Part shown: positions 10,013 through 35,678 of the stretch, piece after piece
How the letters are laid out: every line of letters begins with the position of its first letter
Numbering within the stretch: the first letter of the stretch is position 1
From: an uncultured Prevotellaceae bacterium
GTDB taxonomy: Bacteria > Bacteroidota > Bacteroidia > Bacteroidales > Muribaculaceae
Length of the DNA: 64,000 bases
Direction of reading: 5' to 3'
NCBI GenBank assembly: GCA_900320245.1
Contig: ONRP01000028.1
Coordinates: 1 to 64,000 of the forward strand
The notes under the pieces: model-generated
Told to the model about the DNA's origin: nothing
The model's database searches: none
What the model saw: the letters and a program-made list of their open reading frames with translations, nothing else
Translations under genes and position numbers: made by a program

Positions 10013-10168
10013 GTGGAGCCTGTCCAGAATGGCGTGAAGTGCTCATAATGGTTTCATTATAAGCAAAACAGGAGAACCGTCTTTGGGTTCTTAGGGACAA
10101 TGAAGAGGGTGATTTTTAGTTAAATCTGTTAAAGTGGAAGTTTTGTTAATAATTCTTTTGGTCAGACC

Positions 10169-10199
10169 TTTGTTGGGTGGTGAAAAATGCTTACCTTTG
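10169..10199 (+). promoter_or_regulatory. Promoter of the TonB receptor operon (TTTG-N19-TACCTTTG)
   Basis: TTTG at 10169-10172 and TACCTTTG at 10192-10199 are separated by exactly 19 bp, a full match to the Bacteroidetes consensus. The start site near 10206 gives a leader of about 230 nt. A 74-codon frame starting at 10187 would begin upstream of this start site and is not called. Confidence 0.8.
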
Positions 10200-10243
10200 C
10201 ACCCGAATTGAAGACTATAACGAAAATGTCGATTTATTCATTA

Positions 10244-10318
10244 GGTATACCCTTTAGGATAACTTGTAGTGGTGAGGCTGCCAGCCAATTCTATAACCCG
10301 CTGCAGGAAAGGGTATCC
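10244..10318 (+). promoter_or_regulatory. Structured leader RNA domain, riboswitch-like
   Basis: P1 pairs 10244-10255 with 10308-10318 (11 bp, one bulged U). P2 pairs 10263-10272 (CTTGTAGTGG) with 10298-10307 (CCGCTGCAGG), ten contiguous pairs including G-U. P3 is GGCU-GCC-AGCC at 10276-10286. P1 and P2 abut on the 3' side and are joined by a 7-nt bulge AGGATAA on the 5' side. GGATA in that bulge can pair with TATCC at the end of P1, offering an alternative fold. A terminator follows at 10328. The architecture is that of a cis-regulatory aptamer plus expression platform; I could not match it to a class I know. Confidence 0.6.
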
Positions 10319-10327
10319 AGCGACAAA

Positions 10328-10378
10328 CGCGCTGTATTTTACGGGGAGAGTACCGTAAATGCAGCGCGAAACTTTTTT
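10328..10378 (+). terminator. Terminator inside the 5' leader (attenuator candidate)
   Basis: CGCGCTGTATTTTACGG pairs with CCGTAAATGCAGCGCG (one bulge) around a GGAGAGTA loop, then GAAAC and six T. It lies between the promoter and the ATG at 10438, so it would stop transcription before the receptor gene unless prevented. Confidence 0.8.
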
Positions 10379-10437
10379 AGGCAATATTCATTTTTATACA
10401 ACAATTATTAATTTTAGTTATCATTAAAAGTTTTACT

Positions 10438-13400
10438 ATGTTGAGAACAGTTAAGTTTATGGCCTTGGTGGCAATGCTGTTTGTGGCATTGTCGGCAAGC
10501 GCTCAGGTGACGACCTCGGCACTGTCGGGTGTTGTGACCGATGAAAATCAACAGGCGATGATTGGCGCAACAATCACCGCATTGCACACGCCCTCAGGCA
10601 CTAAGTACAACGCCGTGACCAACATGGATGGCCGTTACACCATCCAGGGTATGCGTCCCGGTGGTCCCTACACCGTTACGGTGAGTTACATCGGCTATGA
10701 GCCCCGCAGCATTGAAGGCGTGACCCTGCAACTGGCTGAGACCTCCAACCTTGACTTTGACATGAGCATTGATGCCAACACGCTGGGTGAGGTTGTGGTT
10801 ACTGCAGCCGCCACCAAATTCCGTGCCGAGAAGACCGGTGCCGCTACCAACATCAACAGTGCCCAGATCACCAATCTGCCCACTGTTACCCGCAGCCTGA
10901 CAGACATTACCCGTCTGTCGCCCTTCGGTGGTAACGGTATGAGTTTTGCCGGTACCGACGGCCGTACTGCCAACTTCACCGTTGACGGTGCCAACTTCAA
11001 CAATAACTTCGGTCTGAGCGACAACCTGCCTGGTGGTGGCAACCCCATCAGCATCGAGGCTATCGAGGAGATGCAGGTCGTTATTTCGCCCTACGATGTT
11101 CGTCAGACCAACTTTATCGGTGGTGGTGTGAACGCTATCACCAAGAGTGGTACCAACAAGTTCCGTGGCAGTGCCTATATCTTCCACCGCAACGAGAACA
11201 TGCGCGGTGACGCTGTACAGCGCACCCAGATTGGTCAGGCCCGCGAGAAATTCAAGGTGACCACCTATGGTGCTACCATCGGCGGCCCGATCATCAAGGA
11301 CAAACTGTTCTTCTTTGTGAACGGTGAGATGACCAAGCAGCCGACTATAGTCAACTCATGGGTTGCTTCACGGGACGGTGTTGCCATTCCCGACCAGTAC
11401 GTCTCGCGCACCACGCTCGCTGACCTGGAGCGCGTGAGCAACCACGTGAAGAGCAAATATGGCTATGACACGGGTTCATGGACCAAATTCCCTGCCGACG
11501 AGAACAACTATAAGATCCTCGCCCGTCTGGACTGGAACATCAACCATGACCATCACCTGGCCCTGCGCTACAACTACACCAAGAACCGCTATTGGAGCAA
11601 TCCCAATGCGACCTCGATGGACGGTGGCACGCGTATGGCAACTGCCCGTGTATCTCAGAAGTCCTTCTCCTTCGCCAACTCGATGTATGGCATGGACAAC
11701 CTGGTACACTCCTTCTCTGTAGACCTGAACAGCCGTCTGACCGACAACCTGTCGAACCAGTTCCTGGCTACCCTGTCTAAACTGGACGATATCCGCGCCA
11801 GCAACTCGAGCGAGTTCCCCTTCATCGACATCACGATGACCGATGCCGACGGCAACAAGGACAACTACATGGCTCTGGGTTATGAGTTGTTCACCTGGAA
11901 TAACGCCGTTCACAACACCATCTGGAACCTGCGTGACGACGTGACCTGGTACTATGGTAACCACAAGATCATGGGTGGTCTGTCGTTTGAACACCAGATG
12001 GCCGACAACCAGTATATGCGTAACGGTACCGGTTACTACCGCTATAACAGCGTTGACGACTTCATCAACGGCGCTACGCCCGAGGTTGTCTGCTTGACCT
12101 ACGGTTACGGTAGCGAGACCAAGCCTGCTGCCCGCGTGCAGTTCAACAAGGCTGGTATCTATGCCCAGGACGAGTGGAACGTGACCAAGCGCTTCAAGTT
12201 GACCTATGGTCTGCGTCTCGACGGTCTGTTCTTCAACAACGGTGACCTGATCACCAACAACGCTATTCTGGCACTGACCTATTATGACAATAAGGGTAAT
12301 GAGCGTCACATCGACACTGGCAAGTGGCCCAACAGCAACCTGATCGTTCAACCTCGCCTCGGCTTCAGCTGGGACGTGCTCGGCAACAAGGTGCTGAAGG
12401 TGCGCGGTGGTACGGGTCTCTTCTCGGGCCGTCTGCCCCTCGTATTCTTCACCAACATGCCCACCAACGGCGGTCTGGTACAGTATCAGGCTCAACTCAA
12501 CGCCAACACCAAGATTGGTGGTATGGTTAAGGATCCCAACACGGGTGAAATGGTCTACAAGCCCAACCGTGGCTTTGAGAACTACACTGGTGCCTACACT
12601 ACCGATGCCAACGGTAACCGCTACATTGACATGAGCCAGTTTGCCGGCGGTCTGGTGACCGAGAACGGCCAGGCTTCGATCAATGCTCTGCGCAACAAAC
12701 TCATCGCTATGGGTTATCCCGAGAACGTGACCTCTGACATGGGTACTGTTCCCTCGGCCGTCAATGGCGTGGATCCCAAGTTCAAGATGCCGATGGTCTG
12801 GAAGACCTCGCTGGCTGTTGACTACAGCATCCCCGTTTCGTTCCCCTTCAGCGTAACCATCGAGGGTATCTTCAACAAGAACATCAACGCTGCCAGCATC
12901 AGCGACTGGTCTATCCCCAGCGTGGGTGGCTATGCCCGCTTCAACGGTGCTGACAACCGTCCCATCTATCCCGCCGGATACCGCACGGGTACCAAGGCTT
13001 TCGTCCTGGAGAACACCAGCCGTGGTTATGGTTGGATTGGCAACATCACCTTGAATGCTGAGCCCACCGACTGGCTGAGCCTGATGGCCGCTTACACCCA
13101 CACCGTACAGAAGGAAGTTACCGGTATGCCCGGTAGCGCTGCCGAGAGTGCCTTCACCTATGTTCCCACCGTTGAGGGTCCCAACAACATCAAGTTGCAC
13201 AACTCGCAGTATGTAACTCCTGACCGTTTCATCGCTTCGGCAACCGGTCATGACCGCAGCGGTAACCACTATGGCCTGATCTATGAGGCATGGCGCGGTG
13301 GTTACAACTACTCCTACATGATGGCCAACGACATGAACGGCGACGGCTACAACTACGACGCACTGTACATCCCCACCGACGAGCAGGTCGCTAACGGTGA

Positions 13401-13833
13401 GTTCCGCTTCGTGAGCGAGGGCGACAAGAACCGCTTCATGGACTATGTACATGCCAACAACTACTTGAAGAACAATCAGGGCAAGTATGCCGAGGCTTAC
13501 AGCCTGTACAGCCCCTGGGTACATCGCATCGACCTGAGTTACAAGCATGACTTCTCGGTGAACGTGTGCGGTGCCAAGCACACCCTGCAGTTGCTCCTTG
13601 ACGTGAAGAACGTGCTGAACTTCTTCAACTCGAGTTGGGGTGTGAGCAAGTACCTCAACCCCGAAATCGGCAGCGATCCCCGCATCCTGAAGTATGAGGG
13701 CGTTGACGCTCAGGGTTATGCCACCTTCTCGACTCCCAAGTCGATTGACGGTGCTACCAAGACCTTCGTTCCCAACAAGGCCATCGGTCAGTGCTGGAAC
13801 GCATCTATCGGTATCAAGTACATCTTCAACTAA
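10438..13833 (+). CDS. Oar-like TonB-dependent outer-membrane receptor
   Basis: 1131 residues: signal peptide 1-22 (ASAQ end), carboxypeptidase-D regulatory-like domain at about 26-115 (GVVTDENQQAMIGATI, YIGYEPRS), a plug with GEVVVTAAATK, NINSAQITNLPT and IEAIEEMQVVISPYDVRQ, then a large beta-barrel ending in a C-terminal aromatic strand (GIKYIFN). The pattern matches the Oar branch of TonB receptors, distinct from SusC because no SusD partner follows. It should import a bulky substrate across the outer membrane using TonB energy. It begins an operon with the BACON/OB-like lipoprotein 23 bp downstream. Its leader contains the structured RNA and terminator described separately. Confidence 0.88.
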   Translation: MLRTVKFMALVAMLFVALSASAQVTTSALSGVVTDENQQAMIGATITALHTPSGTKYNAVTNMDGRYTIQGMRPGGPYTVTVSYIGYEPRSIEGVTLQLAETSNLDFDMSIDANTLGEVVVTAAATKFRAEKTGAATNINSAQITNLPTVTRSLTDITRLSPFGGNGMSFAGTDGRTANFTVDGANFNNNFGLSDNLPGGGNPISIEAIEEMQVVISPYDVRQTNFIGGGVNAITKSGTNKFRGSAYIFHRNENMRGDAVQRTQIGQAREKFKVTTYGATIGGPIIKDKLFFFVNGEMTKQPTIVNSWVASRDGVAIPDQYVSRTTLADLERVSNHVKSKYGYDTGSWTKFPADENNYKILARLDWNINHDHHLALRYNYTKNRYWSNPNATSMDGGTRMATARVSQKSFSFANSMYGMDNLVHSFSVDLNSRLTDNLSNQFLATLSKLDDIRASNSSEFPFIDITMTDADGNKDNYMALGYELFTWNNAVHNTIWNLRDDVTWYYGNHKIMGGLSFEHQMADNQYMRNGTGYYRYNSVDDFINGATPEVVCLTYGYGSETKPAARVQFNKAGIYAQDEWNVTKRFKLTYGLRLDGLFFNNGDLITNNAILALTYYDNKGNERHIDTGKWPNSNLIVQPRLGFSWDVLGNKVLKVRGGTGLFSGRLPLVFFTNMPTNGGLVQYQAQLNANTKIGGMVKDPNTGEMVYKPNRGFENYTGAYTTDANGNRYIDMSQFAGGLVTENGQASINALRNKLIAMGYPENVTSDMGTVPSAVNGVDPKFKMPMVWKTSLAVDYSIPVSFPFSVTIEGIFNKNINAASISDWSIPSVGGYARFNGADNRPIYPAGYRTGTKAFVLENTSRGYGWIGNITLNAEPTDWLSLMAAYTHTVQKEVTGMPGSAAESAFTYVPTVEGPNNIKLHNSQYVTPDRFIASATGHDRSGNHYGLIYEAWRGGYNYSYMMANDMNGDGYNYDALYIPTDEQVANGEFRFVSEGDKNRFMDYVHANNYLKNNQGKYAEAYSLYSPWVHRIDLSYKHDFSVNVCGAKHTLQLLLDVKNVLNFFNSSWGVSKYLNPEIGSDPRILKYEGVDAQGYATFSTPKSIDGATKTFVPNKAIGQCWNASIGIKYIFN

Positions 13834-13856: not shown

Positions 13857-15374
13857 ATGAAACTGAGATATTTTATTTCGTTTTTTGCACTGGTTGCCAT
13901 GTTGTCGGCTTGCTCCGATGACGATGCGATGACCCTGCTCGATGAGATTCAGGTTTCGTCTTCCTATGTGGCCATTGACGAGGCTGGTGGCTCAAACACC
14001 ATTACCCTCAACGCCAAGGAGGCCTGGTCATTTGACCAGGAAGAACTTCCCGAGTGGCTGACCGTGAGCCCGATGAACGGCGGCGCTGGTGAGACCAAGG
14101 TGACCTTCAGTGCTCCCGCTACCCCCGACGGACGCACCGCCGTGCTGCATGTCGCTTGCGCTGGCAAGAAGCAGACCATCAACGTGATCCAGGGCCTGGC
14201 TACCGTTAGCGAGGCTACCTGTGCCGAGGTCATTGCCGGTCCCGAGAGCAAGACCTACCGCGTGACCGGTACCGTAAAGAGCATTGTCAACACGACCTAT
14301 GGTAACTGGTATCTCCAGGATGAGACCGGTGAGGTTTACATCTATGGTACGCTCGATGCCAAGGGCCAGACCAAGAACTTCCTGAGCCTGGGCCTGGAGG
14401 TCGGTGACATCGTTACCGTCGAGGGTCCCAAGACCGTGTATAACGGTACTGTCGAACTGGTTGACGTTACCGTTGTCAAGATTCAGAAGTCGCTGGTTAA
14501 GGTCGAGGGTTATGACCCCGAGGACGCCACCATCCCCCTGGAGGGCGGCAACGTGACCGTTAACCTGACCTGCAAGACCAACAACGGCATCTCGGTCGAG
14601 ATTCCCGACGAGGCCAAGAACTGGCTGGGTATCGTGTCGGTAACCGGTGGCGCTGAGCCCGTGGTTGTCTTCCACGCCAACGCCAACAATGGCGGCGACC
14701 GCAGCACTACCGTTGTGTTCAAGACCACCGACGACAGTGGTAAGGAATATACCGCTCAGGCAACCATCAACCAGAAGGGTGCCATCGTGGCTGCTACTGT
14801 AGCCGAGTTCCTCGAGGCTCCCGTGGGTGACACCTTCTACCGCATCACCGGTGTGATCACCAAGGTGGCCAACGCTACCTATGGCAACGTCTACATCCGT
14901 GACTGGTCGGGCGAGACCTACGTTTACGGCATCGGTTCTCAGGGCGACTTTGAGGCTGCTGGCCTGAAGGCTGGTGACGTCGTTACCCTCGTGGGCAAGC
15001 GTGGCGAGTACAAGGGCACCCCGCAAATGACCGGCGCATCGCTCGAGTCCTTCATCCCCGTTACCCCCATCAGCATCGATGAGTTCCTGGATCTGGAAGA
15101 CAATCCCAATGCCTACTATATGATTACCGGTACGATTACCGAGATCGCTAACCCGACCTATGGTAACGTCTACCTGGACGACGGCACCAACAGCGTCTAT
15201 GTCTATGGCTGCTATCCCGGTTGGGGTGCTACCGGCGACAACCGCAAGGGCCTGTTCGAGAGGGAAGGTATCGAGGTTGGTGATATCATCAGCATCATCG
15301 GCGTCAAGGCCACCTATCAGGGTGCAGCACAGATGTCCAACGGTATCTACTTCTCGCACGAGAAGCCTGAGTAA
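13857..15374 (+). CDS. Surface lipoprotein with BACON-like and repeated OB-fold-like domains
   Basis: 505 residues with a lipoprotein signal (lipobox LSAC, Cys 19). A BACON-type domain (about 30-110, SFDQEELPEWLTVSP) comes first. A unit of about 90 residues reading YRVTGTV / NWYLQDETGEVYIYG / GDIVTVEGPKT follows. The same YRITGVI-YGNVYIRD-YVYG-GDVVTLVGKRGEYKG unit recurs twice (near 320-400 and 415-495), with a second BACON-like stretch between. The repeated unit resembles the OB-fold/DUF5689-like modules in Bacteroidetes surface proteins. It is probably the outer-leaflet partner of the receptor encoded just upstream, binding the substrate. Ligand unknown; nucleic acid or a glycan would both fit such folds. 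Confidence 0.75.
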   Translation: MKLRYFISFFALVAMLSACSDDDAMTLLDEIQVSSSYVAIDEAGGSNTITLNAKEAWSFDQEELPEWLTVSPMNGGAGETKVTFSAPATPDGRTAVLHVACAGKKQTINVIQGLATVSEATCAEVIAGPESKTYRVTGTVKSIVNTTYGNWYLQDETGEVYIYGTLDAKGQTKNFLSLGLEVGDIVTVEGPKTVYNGTVELVDVTVVKIQKSLVKVEGYDPEDATIPLEGGNVTVNLTCKTNNGISVEIPDEAKNWLGIVSVTGGAEPVVVFHANANNGGDRSTTVVFKTTDDSGKEYTAQATINQKGAIVAATVAEFLEAPVGDTFYRITGVITKVANATYGNVYIRDWSGETYVYGIGSQGDFEAAGLKAGDVVTLVGKRGEYKGTPQMTGASLESFIPVTPISIDEFLDLEDNPNAYYMITGTITEIANPTYGNVYLDDGTNSVYVYGCYPGWGATGDNRKGLFEREGIEVGDIISIIGVKATYQGAAQMSNGIYFSHEKPE

Positions 15375-15490: not shown

Positions 15491-16690
15491 ATGATGAAGA
15501 AATTGCTATTGCTATTGTTGGTGGTGTTGATGCCGGTGTGCTCATGGGCTGCCGGTCGTGACACCTACACCGTGATTGTGTCGCTTGACGGGCTGCGGTG
15601 GGACTATCTGGATGCCTATGACGTGCCGTTCCTGAACCAACTGGCCCACGACGGTGTCAAGGCGGTGATGCAGCCGTCGTTCCCGAGCAAGACGTTCCCC
15701 AACCACTATACGCTGGCAACGGGCCTCGTGCCTGACCATCATGGCATCATCGCCAACAGGTTCTGGGACCGTGAGCGTGGCGTGGAGTTCTCGCTGAGCA
15801 ACAATGACACGCGCAGCAAGGGCTACTATTACGGTGGCGATCCCGTGTGGCTCACGGCCAAGCGCCAGGGCGTGAAGACGGCGACGGTCTTCTGGGTGGG
15901 CAGCGATGTCACGATCAAGGACGACCATCCTACTTACTGGCGCGACTACCAGACCGAAAAGATTGACTTCCCGGGACGCGTCGACGAGGTGATCCGCCTG
16001 CTGAAGTTGCCCGAGAAGGACCGTCCTCACCTGGTGATGGCCTACTTCGAGGAGCCTGACCATAGCGGCCACGATTACGGCCCTGTGAGCCGCGAGACGC
16101 GCCAGGCGCTGGAATACCTGGACTCGTTGCTGAGCATGATGTGGACGCGCATCCAGATGCTGCCCATCGGCTCCCAGGTGAACCTGATCATCACGGGAGA
16201 CCACGGTATGACCAGTGTGGACCCTGCCCGCTTCATCAACATCAACGACTACCTGCCGCAGCGCTGGGTAGAGCGTGCGGTCAACGACTATCCCACGCTC
16301 GTCTATGCCAACAAGCCAGAGTATGTGGATTCCATCTACAACGCGCTGCAGGGCGTGGACCACATCCGTGCCTGGAAACGCGGCGAACTGCCCGAGTACC
16401 TGCAATACGGCCACAACGCCAACATGGGCGACGTGGTGGTGCTGCCCGACGTGGGCTGGCTGTTTGACTACAAACCGAGCAAGAAGCAGCGCGGCAGCCA
16501 CGGCTTTGACCACATGGCGGCCGACATGCAGGTGGGTTTCCGCGCCATCGGCCCCGACTTCAAGGTGGGTTACACCAAGCCTGAACGTTTCCGCAACGTG
16601 TGCATCTATCCGTTGCTGTGCTATCTGCTGGGTGTGACACCGTCGCCCAACGACGGCAACCTTGACGAGGTGCGCGACATGCTGCGGTGA
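15491..16690 (+). CDS. ENPP-type nucleotide pyrophosphatase/phosphodiesterase
   Basis: 399 residues with a signal peptide ending CSWA. Alkaline-phosphatase-superfamily metal sites are complete: Asp in SLDGLRWD, nucleophile Thr in KTFPNHYTLATG, Asp and His in EPDHSGHDYG, Asp-His in TGDHGMT, and His in GSHGFDH. These identify the type I phosphodiesterase/nucleotide pyrophosphatase (ENPP) family, which hydrolyses nucleotide pyrophosphate or phosphodiester bonds with two Zn ions. It acts in the periplasm or outside. Its position after the receptor and lipoprotein suggests processing of the imported or surface-bound substrate. A terminator sits just upstream of its start. Confidence 0.88.
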   Translation: MMKKLLLLLLVVLMPVCSWAAGRDTYTVIVSLDGLRWDYLDAYDVPFLNQLAHDGVKAVMQPSFPSKTFPNHYTLATGLVPDHHGIIANRFWDRERGVEFSLSNNDTRSKGYYYGGDPVWLTAKRQGVKTATVFWVGSDVTIKDDHPTYWRDYQTEKIDFPGRVDEVIRLLKLPEKDRPHLVMAYFEEPDHSGHDYGPVSRETRQALEYLDSLLSMMWTRIQMLPIGSQVNLIITGDHGMTSVDPARFININDYLPQRWVERAVNDYPTLVYANKPEYVDSIYNALQGVDHIRAWKRGELPEYLQYGHNANMGDVVVLPDVGWLFDYKPSKKQRGSHGFDHMAADMQVGFRAIGPDFKVGYTKPERFRNVCIYPLLCYLLGVTPSPNDGNLDEVRDMLR

Positions 16691-16803: not shown

Positions 16804-16907
16804 AAAAAAAGGGCAAGTGAACTACAGCGCGCCGCTACAACCTCGTTACCCTTGCTTCGGTCAAGACCTGGGGGATTGGGAGGGAGCTGGCCGTGTAGGA
16901 CTTACCC
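16804..16907 (-). ncRNA. ffs: Probable small signal recognition particle RNA
   Basis: A minus-strand RNA of about 100 nt starts just after a TACTTTTG promoter and ends at seven T. The ends pair (GGGUAAGU with ACUUGCCC, then CCUACA with UGUAG), as in a long hairpin, and the apex reads CCAGGTCTTGACCGAAGC followed by AAGGGTAACGAGG, recalling the SRP apical motif. Size, hairpin shape and promoter support 4.5S-like SRP RNA. The apical loop differs from the E. coli GGAA form, so a covariance-model match is needed for certainty. Confidence 0.6.
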
Positions 16908-16912
16908 GGCTG

Positions 16913-16943
16913 CAAAAGTACTGCTTTTTCCCAATATGGCAAG
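16913..16943 (-). promoter_or_regulatory. Promoter of the SRP-like RNA
   Basis: On the minus strand CTTG (16940-16943) and TACTTTTG (16913-16920) are exactly 19 bp apart. The predicted start near 16907 is the first base of the paired RNA. Confidence 0.75.
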
Positions 16944-31781: not shown

Positions 31782-33770
31782 ATGAACAAACATCCAAGCA
31801 TGAGAGAGGTCCGGGTTGTCCCCCGGGCCATGGTGCCGCTTGCCAATGGCGAGGCGGCACGTTGCGGCGAGGCCGACCTGGCACTGAATGTGCGCCAGAG
31901 CGAGCAGTCGCTGCAGGTGACAGGCAACCCTGCCACCGTGGGCGCTATTGCCGCCGGCGAGCGGTTGTTGCTGCTGACCGACGGGCACCGCGTGACCTGT
32001 AGCGGTGCTGTAGTGAAGATTGACGGCGCCGCCGTGGCCACCATTGCCGGCACGATTGTCAACGTGCATGCCGTGGGCGACCTGCTGGTGGTTGTGGGCG
32101 AGCACGGCATGACCTATATTGCCCGCCGTGAGGGGGCTTGGGTCGTGCTCGACATGGCCGATGCCATCCCGCAGTTGTCGTTCACCGCCACGGCCGTCAC
32201 CAGCAGTGCCGAGATTGCAGCCTATGCCTTTGCCGAACCTTATAGCACATGGCGCGCCCCGCTGGCCAGTGCCGACTGCCAGGTGCTGGCGACTGCGCTG
32301 CGCACGGCGTGGAATGCCCTGACCGCCGATGCCGCTGCCGAGGGACTGCACAGCGCGCCGATGCTGGTGCGGTGGGGCGTACGCCTGGTTGACGACAGTT
32401 ACCTGTGGCTGAGTGAACCCCAGCGCGTGGGCGATATCACCTTGGGCAATGCCGACCGCGTGAGCGCTGTGGTCACGACCAGCAGCAGCCGTTTCACTGG
32501 CATCGAGGCGTCGACGATGACATTGACCCACTACCGCCTGGGCGTGGACATCACGCGCCCCATTGATGCGTCATGGCTGCCGCTGGTCAAGAGCATCGAC
32601 GTGCTGGCCACTGCCGAGGGCCACCTGCTCACGTCGAGTCGTTCGCTGGATTACCGGTGCATCACGCGCACGACGGGTGGCAGGGAGTATATCCTGGAGA
32701 TGGGATTGTCGCGCCGCAGTGCGGGAGCCATTGCTGCCGAACTTGCCGCCTCGTCGTGGCATCTCATCGCCACCGCACCCGCCTCGCCGTCGCCGTCAAG
32801 CAGCGACTTCGTGCCTCCCGCCGAGCCGTTGTCGCTGACCAATGCCCAGTGTGGCGCCGTGGGGGCCTTGTTGCGCACCGATGGCGTAGTGTGCTCGACC
32901 ACTGCCGGAGGCCGTCTGTACTGCTGCACTGCCGGTGGCGACGTCATCGTGACACCGCCCGGCAATGCGCTTGTCGAGGCCCATCGCCGCAGTGTGACCG
33001 GCACGGTGCCGCTGGCCATGGCGGTGGTGACCAAGCCGTTGTATTCGGGTGGCTTCGGCCGCTATCCGGTGTATGTGTTCACCGATGACGGCATCTTTGC
33101 CGTTCCGCAGAGCACGATGGGTGCCTTGGGTGAAGCGCGCCTGGTGGACCGCACCGTCGTTATGCCCGATGTGGCACCTGTCGAGGGTGGGGGAGACGTG
33201 TGGTTCGTGTCGCGTCATCGCCACCTGTGCCGCCTGACCGGAGCGCGTGTCGAAGTGTGCCGCCGCGATGCGGATTGCCGCGCCCTGGCGTGGTGCAATG
33301 CCTACAGCGAGTTGTGGATGCTGCCCAGCGAGGGACTGCCCGAGGTGAGGATGAGTGATGCAACCCTGAGCCGTCGCAGCGTCGGGGCCGTGCAACTCTA
33401 CAGCGATCCGCGCCATGCCGTCGCCGTCACCGCTGCGGGCTCGCTGCTCGACTTGGAGCAGGAACAGGCCGCGACGATGGAGGTGGCCTGGCGCAGCCAT
33501 CCCGTAGCACTCGACCCGCTGCGGGGACGGGTCCTGCATCGTGTGGTGTGGCACGTGGTGAGCGACGGCGCTGACCTTGAATTGCGGGTCACCGGCCAGC
33601 AGGGTATCATGGCACGGGAGTTTGTGGCGAGCGTCATCACCGTCAATGGTGCCATCGACCAACCGCTGGCGGCGCCGACGGTGGCTGCGCAGCCGCGCTC
33701 CGTCAGGTTCTCACTCACGGGTACGGCATCGAGCGGCACCCTGCTGCTCCCCAGCCTGCTCTACACCTGA
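31782..33770 (+). CDS. Large beta-rich protein, phage structural-like, paired with a terminase
   Basis: 662 residues with no signal peptide and few predicted helices. Repeated short strands with GD/GG turns suggest beta-propeller or tail/head-completion folds. No motif is recognised with confidence. The phage link is inferred from the terminase gene 30 bp downstream on the same strand. Codon and GC content resemble neighbouring host genes rather than a recent AT-rich insertion. It is uninterrupted despite the absence of other phage genes. Alternative: an unrelated host beta-propeller protein that happens to precede the terminase. Confidence 0.6.
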   Translation: MNKHPSMREVRVVPRAMVPLANGEAARCGEADLALNVRQSEQSLQVTGNPATVGAIAAGERLLLLTDGHRVTCSGAVVKIDGAAVATIAGTIVNVHAVGDLLVVVGEHGMTYIARREGAWVVLDMADAIPQLSFTATAVTSSAEIAAYAFAEPYSTWRAPLASADCQVLATALRTAWNALTADAAAEGLHSAPMLVRWGVRLVDDSYLWLSEPQRVGDITLGNADRVSAVVTTSSSRFTGIEASTMTLTHYRLGVDITRPIDASWLPLVKSIDVLATAEGHLLTSSRSLDYRCITRTTGGREYILEMGLSRRSAGAIAAELAASSWHLIATAPASPSPSSSDFVPPAEPLSLTNAQCGAVGALLRTDGVVCSTTAGGRLYCCTAGGDVIVTPPGNALVEAHRRSVTGTVPLAMAVVTKPLYSGGFGRYPVYVFTDDGIFAVPQSTMGALGEARLVDRTVVMPDVAPVEGGGDVWFVSRHRHLCRLTGARVEVCRRDADCRALAWCNAYSELWMLPSEGLPEVRMSDATLSRRSVGAVQLYSDPRHAVAVTAAGSLLDLEQEQAATMEVAWRSHPVALDPLRGRVLHRVVWHVVSDGADLELRVTGQQGIMAREFVASVITVNGAIDQPLAAPTVAAQPRSVRFSLTGTASSGTLLLPSLLYT

Positions 33771-33800
33771 AACACTGACATAAAATGAATGTGATTGACC

Positions 33801-35678
33801 ATGAAAAATACACCTATCGAACATATTATTGCCGAGAACGAGCGCCGCAAGGCAATAGCGGCAGCCGACCGTTACGACCAACTAACGGGCGAGGGCTGCT
33901 ACGGCGACCGGGTGGAGGCCGACGGATGCCGCGTGCCGCGCGCTGTGCTCGCCCGCTGTCCCGACTACCTGTCGCTGCCGCCGCTGGAGCGCGACCGCTG
34001 GCGCATCCAGGAGGACTTTGAGTACTGGTGTGTCCGCTGCGTGACCATCAAGGACAAACTGAGCGGCCGCAACGTGCCCCTGCTGCTCAACCGCCCGCAG
34101 CGCCGGCTGCTCGCCATGATGGAGGACCAGCGCACGGTGGGCCGCCCGGTGCGCGTCATCCTGCTCAAAGCACGCCAGTGGGGTGGCTCCACACTGGTGC
34201 AGATGTACCTGGCCTGGATGCAACTGGTGCGCCATCAGGGTTGGAACAGCCTCATCTGCGGTCACCTGCATGTGACAAGCAAGAGCATCAAGCGGATGTA
34301 CAACCTGCTGCTGCGCCACTATCCGCGTGACCTGCTCGACGGCGGGCGGCCGCGGTTCACCAAACTTGAGGGCCAGCCCAACGTGCAGCAGGTCGAGGGC
34401 CGCGATTGCCTCGTGATCACTGCCAGTTCGCGCAGCGAGGATGCCGTTCGCGGCTATGACATCAAGATGGCCCACCTGAGCGAGGTGGCCTTCTGGCAGT
34501 CGAGCGCGATGCACAGTCCCGACGAGGTGGTGCGCAGCGTGTGCGGCAGTGTGGCCCTGGAGCCCGAGACCGTCATCGTGCTCGAGTCGACAGCCAACGG
34601 CGTGGGCGACTACTTCCATGACGAGTGGCTGCGCGCCCAGATGGGACGCAGCGACAAGCAGCCGGTCTTTGTGCCCTGGTACGAGATCGATATCTACTCG
34701 CACGAGGTCGATGACCCCGAGGCGCTGTGGCGTGAGATGGACGAGTATGAGCACACGCTGTGGAACGACGGATGCACCCTGGAGCAGGTGAACTGGTATC
34801 ATCACAAACGACGGGAGTACCGCCGCCACGAGATGATGATGGCCGAGTATCCCACCAGCGCCAGCGAGGCATTTGCCACGAGCGGCAACCACCCGTTTCC
34901 GCGCGAGGACCTGGACCGCCTGGAGCAGGGCTGTGCAGGAGGACCGCTGCTGGAAGGCGACATCCAGGGCGACGGCATGAGCGGTGAGGCCGCCAAGCGC
35001 AACATCCACCTGGTGAAGTCGGCCGGCGGCCTGCTGCGCGTGTGGGAGGCCCCCGAACGCCAGCGGCCTGTCAAGACGCGCTACATGGTGGTCGTGGACG
35101 TGGGCGGCAGGGCCGACAGCAGCGACTACTCGGTCATCGCCGTGTGGCGCATGGCCGCCGGCGGCCGCAAACCCGCTATCGCGGCACAATGGCGCGGCCA
35201 CATCGACCACGACGAACTGGCGTGGAAGGCGATGCAACTGGCCAAGTACTACAACGACGCGCTGCTCGTCGTGGAGAGCAACACGCTCACCAACGAGGCC
35301 GCGCGTGCGGGCGAGAGCGATTATATCCTGGAGAAGGTGTTGCACGTCTATGGCAACGTGTACCGCAGGGAGTCGGGGCGGCTGGGATTCCACACCAACG
35401 GCAAGACCAAGCGCAAGGCCATCTCGGCACTCATCGCCGCACTGCGCGACGACAAGTATGTGGAACGTGACATCGAGGCGGTGAACGAGATGCGCTTCTA
35501 TGAGGAGCACAACGGGCGCTATGCCGCCCGGGCCGGCAAGCACGACGACATCCTGATGACGCGTGCCATCGGCTTGTACCTGATGGAGGACCGTCGCGTC
35601 AATCCCGACTGGCAGCCGCCGTCGGTGTCGCTCAGTGTCGATACGTGGTGCGTCGAGCACGTCGCTACCGGTAGGTGA
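33801..35678 (+). CDS. Phage-type terminase large subunit
   Basis: 625 residues. ATPase half: a terminase Walker A variant KARQWGGST (Lys near residue 123), a Walker B-like segment IKMAHLSEVAF with the catalytic acid Glu, and the coupling motif ESTANG. Nuclease half: the RNase H-like acidic residues in VVVDVGGRADSSDYSVIAV, VVESN and GKHDDILMTRA. All core motifs look intact, so the packaging motor could be active. No portal, capsid, tail, integrase or small terminase gene adjoins. The start is ATG 33801 (the frame extends to a TTG at 33795). It ends at a bidirectional terminator shared with the convergent gene. Confidence 0.85.
   Translation: MKNTPIEHIIAENERRKAIAAADRYDQLTGEGCYGDRVEADGCRVPRAVLARCPDYLSLPPLERDRWRIQEDFEYWCVRCVTIKDKLSGRNVPLLLNRPQRRLLAMMEDQRTVGRPVRVILLKARQWGGSTLVQMYLAWMQLVRHQGWNSLICGHLHVTSKSIKRMYNLLLRHYPRDLLDGGRPRFTKLEGQPNVQQVEGRDCLVITASSRSEDAVRGYDIKMAHLSEVAFWQSSAMHSPDEVVRSVCGSVALEPETVIVLESTANGVGDYFHDEWLRAQMGRSDKQPVFVPWYEIDIYSHEVDDPEALWREMDEYEHTLWNDGCTLEQVNWYHHKRREYRRHEMMMAEYPTSASEAFATSGNHPFPREDLDRLEQGCAGGPLLEGDIQGDGMSGEAAKRNIHLVKSAGGLLRVWEAPERQRPVKTRYMVVVDVGGRADSSDYSVIAVWRMAAGGRKPAIAAQWRGHIDHDELAWKAMQLAKYYNDALLVVESNTLTNEAARAGESDYILEKVLHVYGNVYRRESGRLGFHTNGKTKRKAISALIAALRDDKYVERDIEAVNEMRFYEEHNGRYAARAGKHDDILMTRAIGLYLMEDRRVNPDWQPPSVSLSVDTWCVEHVATGR

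Follow-up and report, generated by a model that had tools for sequence, protein, structure and literature searches.

In the trpL leader, the Trp codons precede the 1:2 hairpin. Rare CUA codons sharpen the leu attenuator (PMC1183508), and in pyrBI the terminator is kept from forming when coupling across pyrL is tight (PMC5021804, PMC3641672). The ilvB-II motif of Corynebacterium was tested as a possible riboswitch, and the verdict was a uORF attenuator with AUG, GUG and UUG starts (PMC10272879); this is a precedent for the misreading considered below, in which a structured leader is taken as a riboswitch candidate. A uORF in E. coli has been described as sensing translation stress (PMC12121999), and modelling of translation in E. 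coli makes AUA a very slow codon and sequences containing it highly sensitive (PMC3783181). For the Bacteroidota, the open-access literature searched offers on leader-peptide control only the remark that the long 5' UTRs with sORFs of B. thetaiotaomicron are reminiscent of attenuating leader peptides, the sORFs being unvalidated (PMC7366714). That remark is illustrated with a different gene, BT_4401, and the accessible text mentions neither terminator overlap nor an AUA rule.

We have analysed a leader that precedes an Oar-like TonB receptor gene in a 64,000-nucleotide stretch of DNA (the window) from an uncultured Prevotellaceae bacterium. A sequence-only reading of this DNA had presented the leader as an undescribed regulatory element resembling a riboswitch, with three helices (P1, P2 and P3), a GGATA/UAUCC switch and a terminator of its own. 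There is indeed a terminator between the sole -7 box and the receptor gene, and no Rfam family matches the leader, so the idea of an undescribed regulatory element stands; the riboswitch reading does not. What had been overlooked is a leader ORF that spans P1, P2, P3 and the terminator (Table 1). The feature is very likely regulatory, as a variant of leader-ORF attenuation and not the riboswitch that was claimed; that it acts by some form of leader-ORF attenuation we hold with good confidence. Neither such a leader nor a fixed AUA codon turned up in the open-access literature searched (preprints and most subscription journals lie outside it).

Table 1 Features of the receptor leader and its operon, in window positions
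Feature	Position	Strand	Remarks
Promoter	10169..10199	+	TTTG 10169-10172; -7 box TACCTTTG 10192-10199
Leader ORF, 61 codons, MSIYSLGIPFRITCSGEAASQFYNPLQERVSSDKRAVFYGESTVNAARNFFRQYSFLYNNY	10226..10411	+	ATG 10226, TAA 10409-10411; coding signature in 39 homologs
P1	10244..10318	+	10244-10245 and 10247-10255 with 10308-10318; fold of this sequence alone, unsupported in relatives
AUA codon 8	10247..10249	+	ATA at aligned codon in 36/39 type A leaders
AUA codon 12	10259..10261	+	Directly before P2; ATA at aligned codon in 37/39 type A leaders
Hairpin P2	10263..10307	+	10263-10272 paired with 10298-10307; conserved
P3	10276-10279/10283-10286	+	Within P2; MFE fold, not conserved
Intrinsic terminator (predicted)	10328..10378	+	Stem 10328-10368, T-run 10373-10378; covariation in 9/16 pairs
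Oar-like TonB receptor	10438..13833	+	CarboxypepD_reg, OMP_b-brl_4
BACON / OB-fold lipoprotein-like gene	13857..15374	+	Kept downstream in 8/12 relatives read
NPP-family nucleotide pyrophosphatase/phosphodiesterase	15491..16690	+	Kept downstream in 7/12 relatives read

The promoter that had been claimed ahead of the leader is present, its -7 box TACCTTTG being the Bacteroidetes -7 consensus of the -33/-7 promoter type. The leader ORF begins 26 nt past this box. We assume that the receptor, OB-fold and NPP genes are co-transcribed, and the operon may serve in scavenging nucleotides or other phosphodiesters. Directly behind the NPP gene, on the opposite strand (16807-16914), lies an Rfam Bacteroidales small SRP RNA; this and a tRNA are the two Rfam matches at gathering score in the whole window, both outside the leader. 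The opinion that the leader (10200-10437) belongs to no known riboswitch class agrees with the Rfam covariance models, none of which matches it at gathering score, T-box included, and with E up to 10 the three matches at 10100-10500 are all far below gathering. The leader is single copy in the source genome (G000; 3.02 Mb, 73 contigs). Many of the genomes of close relatives (uncultured Muribaculaceae, Prevotellaceae and Bacteroidales) come from rumen samples.

Homologous leaders of the same kind, here called type A, were collected from 35 of 101 genomes of one Muribaculaceae genus by DNA search, and four more were added from before orthologous receptors, giving 39. A covariance model built from the type A leaders finds matches in 39/101 genus genomes; at the family level it matches 19 of 297 genomes and 1 of 30 genera. 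The -7 box is present upstream of the leader ORF in all 39, and none of them has another between terminator and receptor, nor do any of the 17 type B leaders described below.

The MFE fold of 10200-10437 contains the three helices of the sequence-only reading (P1 with 9+2 bp, P2 with 10 bp and P3 with 4 bp) followed by the terminator, and is more stable than expected (z = -2.63, with 0/200 shuffles equally stable). Across the 39 type A rows, however, the three-helix arrangement is kept only in part: P1 is paired in 69% of cells (double changes in 4/11 pairs, 7 cells) and P3 in 70% (no double changes), whilst P2 is paired in 94%, with a double change in one of its ten pairs and one-sided changes in six, so that its retention is mainly a matter of one-sided change. 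The intrinsic terminator, which had been called complete, is on firmer ground, being predicted in the MFE fold and paired in 93% of cells with double changes in 9 of 16 pairs. The covariation score of the whole structure (0.188, against 0.142 in shuffles; 0/500 reach it) is carried mostly by the terminator, and RNAalifold on the 39 rows returns P2 and the terminator only, without a conserved antiterminator exclusive with the latter. The GGATA/UAUCC switch fares worst, with the exact pair in 2/39 homologs and any 5-bp Watson–Crick/GU partner in 6/39. Because homologs without compensatory changes in P1–P3 are the very observation by which the sequence-only reading proposed to be judged, the riboswitch reading is counter-indicated.

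The leader ORF, by contrast with P1, P3 and the switch pairing, is kept, and it is for this reason that we read the conservation in the alignments as tracking codons (the frame and the rare AUA) and not the proposed three-helix aptamer. Over an 84-nt block, in-frame stops occur in 0/38 non-redundant type A rows, compared with 32/38 and 38/38 in the other two frames. Amongst single-base codon differences the share that is synonymous is 0.53 in frame versus 0.21 and 0.14 out of frame, and mean entropy at codon positions 1 to 3 is 0.53, 0.45 and 0.89. All 39 type A leaders have an ATG, GTG or TTG placed 7-9 codons ahead of a conserved Ile codon (ATG only in 16, GTG only in 7 and the remainder with ATG/GTG/TTG). 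In 39/39 type A and 17/17 type B leaders the terminator arm has already begun where the ORF stops, and in 35/39 of type A the stop lies beyond the entire terminator stem. Four leaders (L013, L024, L057, L058) differ in length upstream of the terminator by multiples of three, and frame shifts in three others (L021, L031, L033) are found only adjacent to the terminator. Two of the defining marks of an attenuator are thus present in predicted form, namely a short leader ORF whose translation is predicted from conservation and, between the ORF start and the structural gene, a predicted intrinsic terminator. Some third positions outside the helices of type A leaders are near-constant (ATA, AGG/AAG at codon 11, AAC and AGC), so that more than the peptide must be under selection; those beside AUA hint at an RNA-level constraint beyond the codons. 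In five type A loci (L008, L011, L013, L015, L018) the leader ORF is open in frame into the receptor gene, making a read-through fusion conceivable in those loci; this is not general. A search of the leader peptide against plasmids gave no match.

Receptor relatives were found in 100/101 genus genomes. We assembled 91 upstream regions, comprising the 35 leaders found by DNA search, 40 regions from close receptors (of which L073, at a contig end, was dropped) and 17 from more distant ones. Sorted by eye, these fall into 39 type A leaders, 17 of type B, 24 other leaders and 11 regions without such a leader (L069-L071, L156, L158, L163, L164, L168-L171). Type B leaders have a different peptide (such as MALLQFFIFDIYSPGSDAITAGDNISH), hairpin and terminator with the same order of parts, and their ORF too bears a coding signature: in-frame stops in 0/17 versus 14 and 14 in the other frames, and a synonymous share of 0.39 versus 0.25 and 0.16. 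The peptides of type A, type B and the other leaders are unlike one another, and what is retained is the order of parts, the overlap of ORF and terminator and the position of AUA. Eleven receptor upstream regions from other genera were also read by eye (L110 was not scored); L104 shows a possible layout without the early AUA, and no layout was seen in the rest.

AUA is rare in this DNA: the 179 Ile codons of six window genes include a single one. In type A leaders the early ATA falls at codon 8 in 31, codon 7 in three and codon 9 in two (36/39). The distance from the Ile codon to the -7 box varies between 41 and 57 nt (five values of 2 nt reflect a nearer box-like match) and the codon index stays at 7-9, a point in favour of its being read by the ribosome. 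In the four type A leaders that are one codon longer (L013, L024, L057, L058), an ATA is kept at codon 6, the shifted ATA having been lost in L013, L024 and L058 but not in L057. ORFs were also called by a rule blind to AUA (the longest ORF with 25 codons or more that starts at an ATG or GTG 18-62 nt past the -7 box), which gave ORFs in 37/39 type A, 17/17 type B and 23/24 other leaders. Within codons 2-12 of these, ATA occurs 82 times in frame versus 12 and 6 times out of frame in type A, and 17 times versus once and never in type B, where all 17 stand at codon 8. Amongst the other leaders the figures are 12 in frame versus 9 and 3, the 12 early AUAs lying at codons 6 (two), 7 (seven) and 8 (three); 11 of the 23 ORFs lack an early AUA, those of type C leaders included. 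Were AUAs spread evenly over codons 2-12, 12 out of 12 at codons 6-8 would have P = 1.7e-7, or 4e-4 when collapsed to six groups set by judgement, although this is a partial test, since the codon position was taken from types A and B and the leaders are related. Four leaders (L089, L092, L096, L093) represent another type, without AUA; the ORFs called in the first three have Met at codon 7, and L093 has no ORF by the rule.

Is this plan used elsewhere? A scan of both strands of the window found 39 -7 boxes, three of them with a terminator within 230 nt and one of those, the receptor leader, with an ORF entering the terminator. The source genome has 29 PF13715 places, 28 of which were checked (L154 was left out), and only at this receptor does a strong terminator follow a -7 box; three of the 28 have no ATG, and several have unreliable starts placed far upstream. 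At L131, whose start is one of the unreliable ones, a box is followed by a weak hairpin (-11.5 kcal/mol), and L152 has a strong one without a box. Two pattern searches of the same genome gave 22 matches (one for a reversed-pattern control) and 50 matches (control 13), and amongst the loci read from them the combination of short ORF, -7 box and near-stop terminator was seen only in the Oar leader and in one before a SemiSWEET-like gene; the patterns were limited to CTTTG-type boxes. L258 and L270, flagged as further places, were set aside by eye, as a likely small membrane protein and as without a -7 box respectively.

The second leader lies on contig C64 of the source genome (~33724-34213; L148, L206, L207), before a PQ-loop (SemiSWEET-like) gene; here the -7 box is joined by an ORF of 34 codons, the seventh of them AUA, and by a terminator. 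Thirty orthologs were read, drawn from 92 genomes with a match, and 14 of them have the leader, 13 by rule and L208 by eye (box TACCTTCG); by rule it is absent from 16/30 orthologs and from 20/20 more distant ones. AUA stands at codon 7 in 12 of the 14 (L208 by eye), the exceptions being L210 and L214, and the terminator is detected by rule in 10 of 13. A similar hairpin precedes the SemiSWEET-like gene even where the leader ORF is absent. In six genus genomes the type A model gives a weak second hit (L313-L318). These six places are diverged copies of type A leaders, and the genes behind them resemble one another in sequence; of two that were run through Pfam, both are DUF5689. AUA is at codon 8 in L314, L315, L318 and L317 (the count in L317 beginning at its third Met). 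Near codon 8 there is a CUA in L316, L313 has AUC at codon 6-7, and both have an AUA further on.

How might such a leader work? The leaders as read from their sequences have a conserved frame, an ORF overlapping the terminator, a constant AUA, a conserved terminator and P2, and no second -7 box. On this basis we lean, without great firmness, towards a ribosome-mediated transcription attenuator resembling pyrBI, in which translation through the ORF would block the terminator (ON) and AUA would slow the ribosome. RNA polymerase would initiate shortly past the -7 box and a ribosome would load on the leader ORF, to reach the rare and presumably slow AUA at codon 8 (and a second at codon 12) just ahead of P2. 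With the ribosome lagging or absent, the terminator would fold and transcription end, this being the default. A ribosome that has passed AUA and follows close behind the polymerase would, because the ORF runs through the 5' arm of the terminator, cover that arm and permit read-through into the receptor, OB-fold and NPP genes. Translation would then be the ON signal and AUA a speed brake, and what is sensed may be the speed of translation relative to that of transcription, perhaps reflecting nucleotide or charged-tRNA state. The model requires no antiterminator. Counting against it are the 11 of 23 other leader ORFs without an early AUA, the near-constant third positions beside AUA, the 11 of 91 receptor upstream regions that have no leader of this sort, the hairpin that precedes SemiSWEET-like genes even when the ORF is gone, and the fact that no pyrBI-like pause tract was seen by eye between P2 and the terminator. 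We can also imagine, as a tentative and on balance doubtful extension, a rumen Muribaculaceae regulon (the Oar-OB-NPP operon, the DUF5689 genes and the SemiSWEET-like gene) read out by the decoding speed of one AUA at about codon 7-8 of leader ORFs that are otherwise dissimilar, the cell sensing AUA decoding (a rare tRNA-Ile, its charging, modification or damage) and not an RNA-bound metabolite.

Other explanations deserve weighing. In a device of the trp/leu type, a ribosome stalled at AUA would keep P2 open and leave its 3' strand to pair downstream, so that no terminator forms and slow decoding is the ON state. AUA codons 8 and 12, directly ahead of P2, have the geometry expected of regulatory codons, like the Trp codons of trpL, and rare codons do sharpen the leu attenuator (PMC1183508), but RNAalifold yields no conserved pairing that overlaps the terminator, a possible pairing of the P2 3' strand with CAGCG (by eye) does not overlap it either, and the ORF passes through the terminator rather than ending before it. 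We think this explanation unlikely. Less likely still is a stand-alone small-protein gene, composed of promoter, ORF and terminator, whose peptide acts in trans and past which the receptor is expressed by leaky read-through. Although this would account for the coding signature, and also for the SemiSWEET-like locus, where promoter and ORF occur in 14/30 orthologs and the hairpin is seen without them too, a terminator inside the ORF (in type A, with the stop past the stem in 35/39) is odd for a plain gene end, and between types it is the order of parts, the terminator overlap and the AUA position that are kept and not the peptide.

The metabolite riboswitch, with P1–P3 as aptamer and the GGATA/UAUCC pair as switch, possibly overlapping an ORF, now seems very improbable. 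A fold that beats 200 shuffles and the conservation of P2 and of some nucleotides outside the helices are what it would lead one to expect; the incomplete pairing of P1 and P3 in relatives, a switch pair in 2/39, the lack of an Rfam match, the strong coding signature and a distribution confined, for the type A model, to 19/297 family genomes and 1/30 genera all speak against it.

If it is true that a rare codon is held at a near-constant index whilst peptide, hairpin and downstream gene change, then codon position itself is put to regulatory use, and the surprise lies in an AUA position rule that is shared by unlike leaders before three different kinds of downstream gene. The locus is also a warning that what looks like a riboswitch in a folded leader can be an ORF under translation. 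The ilvB-II leader, where this lesson was learnt before, differs from ours in its BCAA-rich peptide, its predicted antiterminator and its BCAA biosynthesis operon. The trp, leu and his attenuators share with the present leader an ORF, special codons before a hairpin and a terminator; here, however, no conserved antiterminator was found, there are one or two AUA codons instead of a run, the ORF enters the terminator and the operon is not one of amino acid biosynthesis. In E. coli pyrBI the leader ORF (pyrL) likewise overlaps the intrinsic terminator (PMC3641672). The genes downstream of pyrL concern nucleotides, and here there is an NPP gene. Whereas pyrBI has a uridine-rich pause stretch, no U- or A-rich polymerase pause tract was seen by eye here between P2 and the terminator, and set against pyrBI the present leader has a fixed rare AUA and a conserved hairpin, P2, and stands before an outer-membrane receptor operon in the Bacteroidota.
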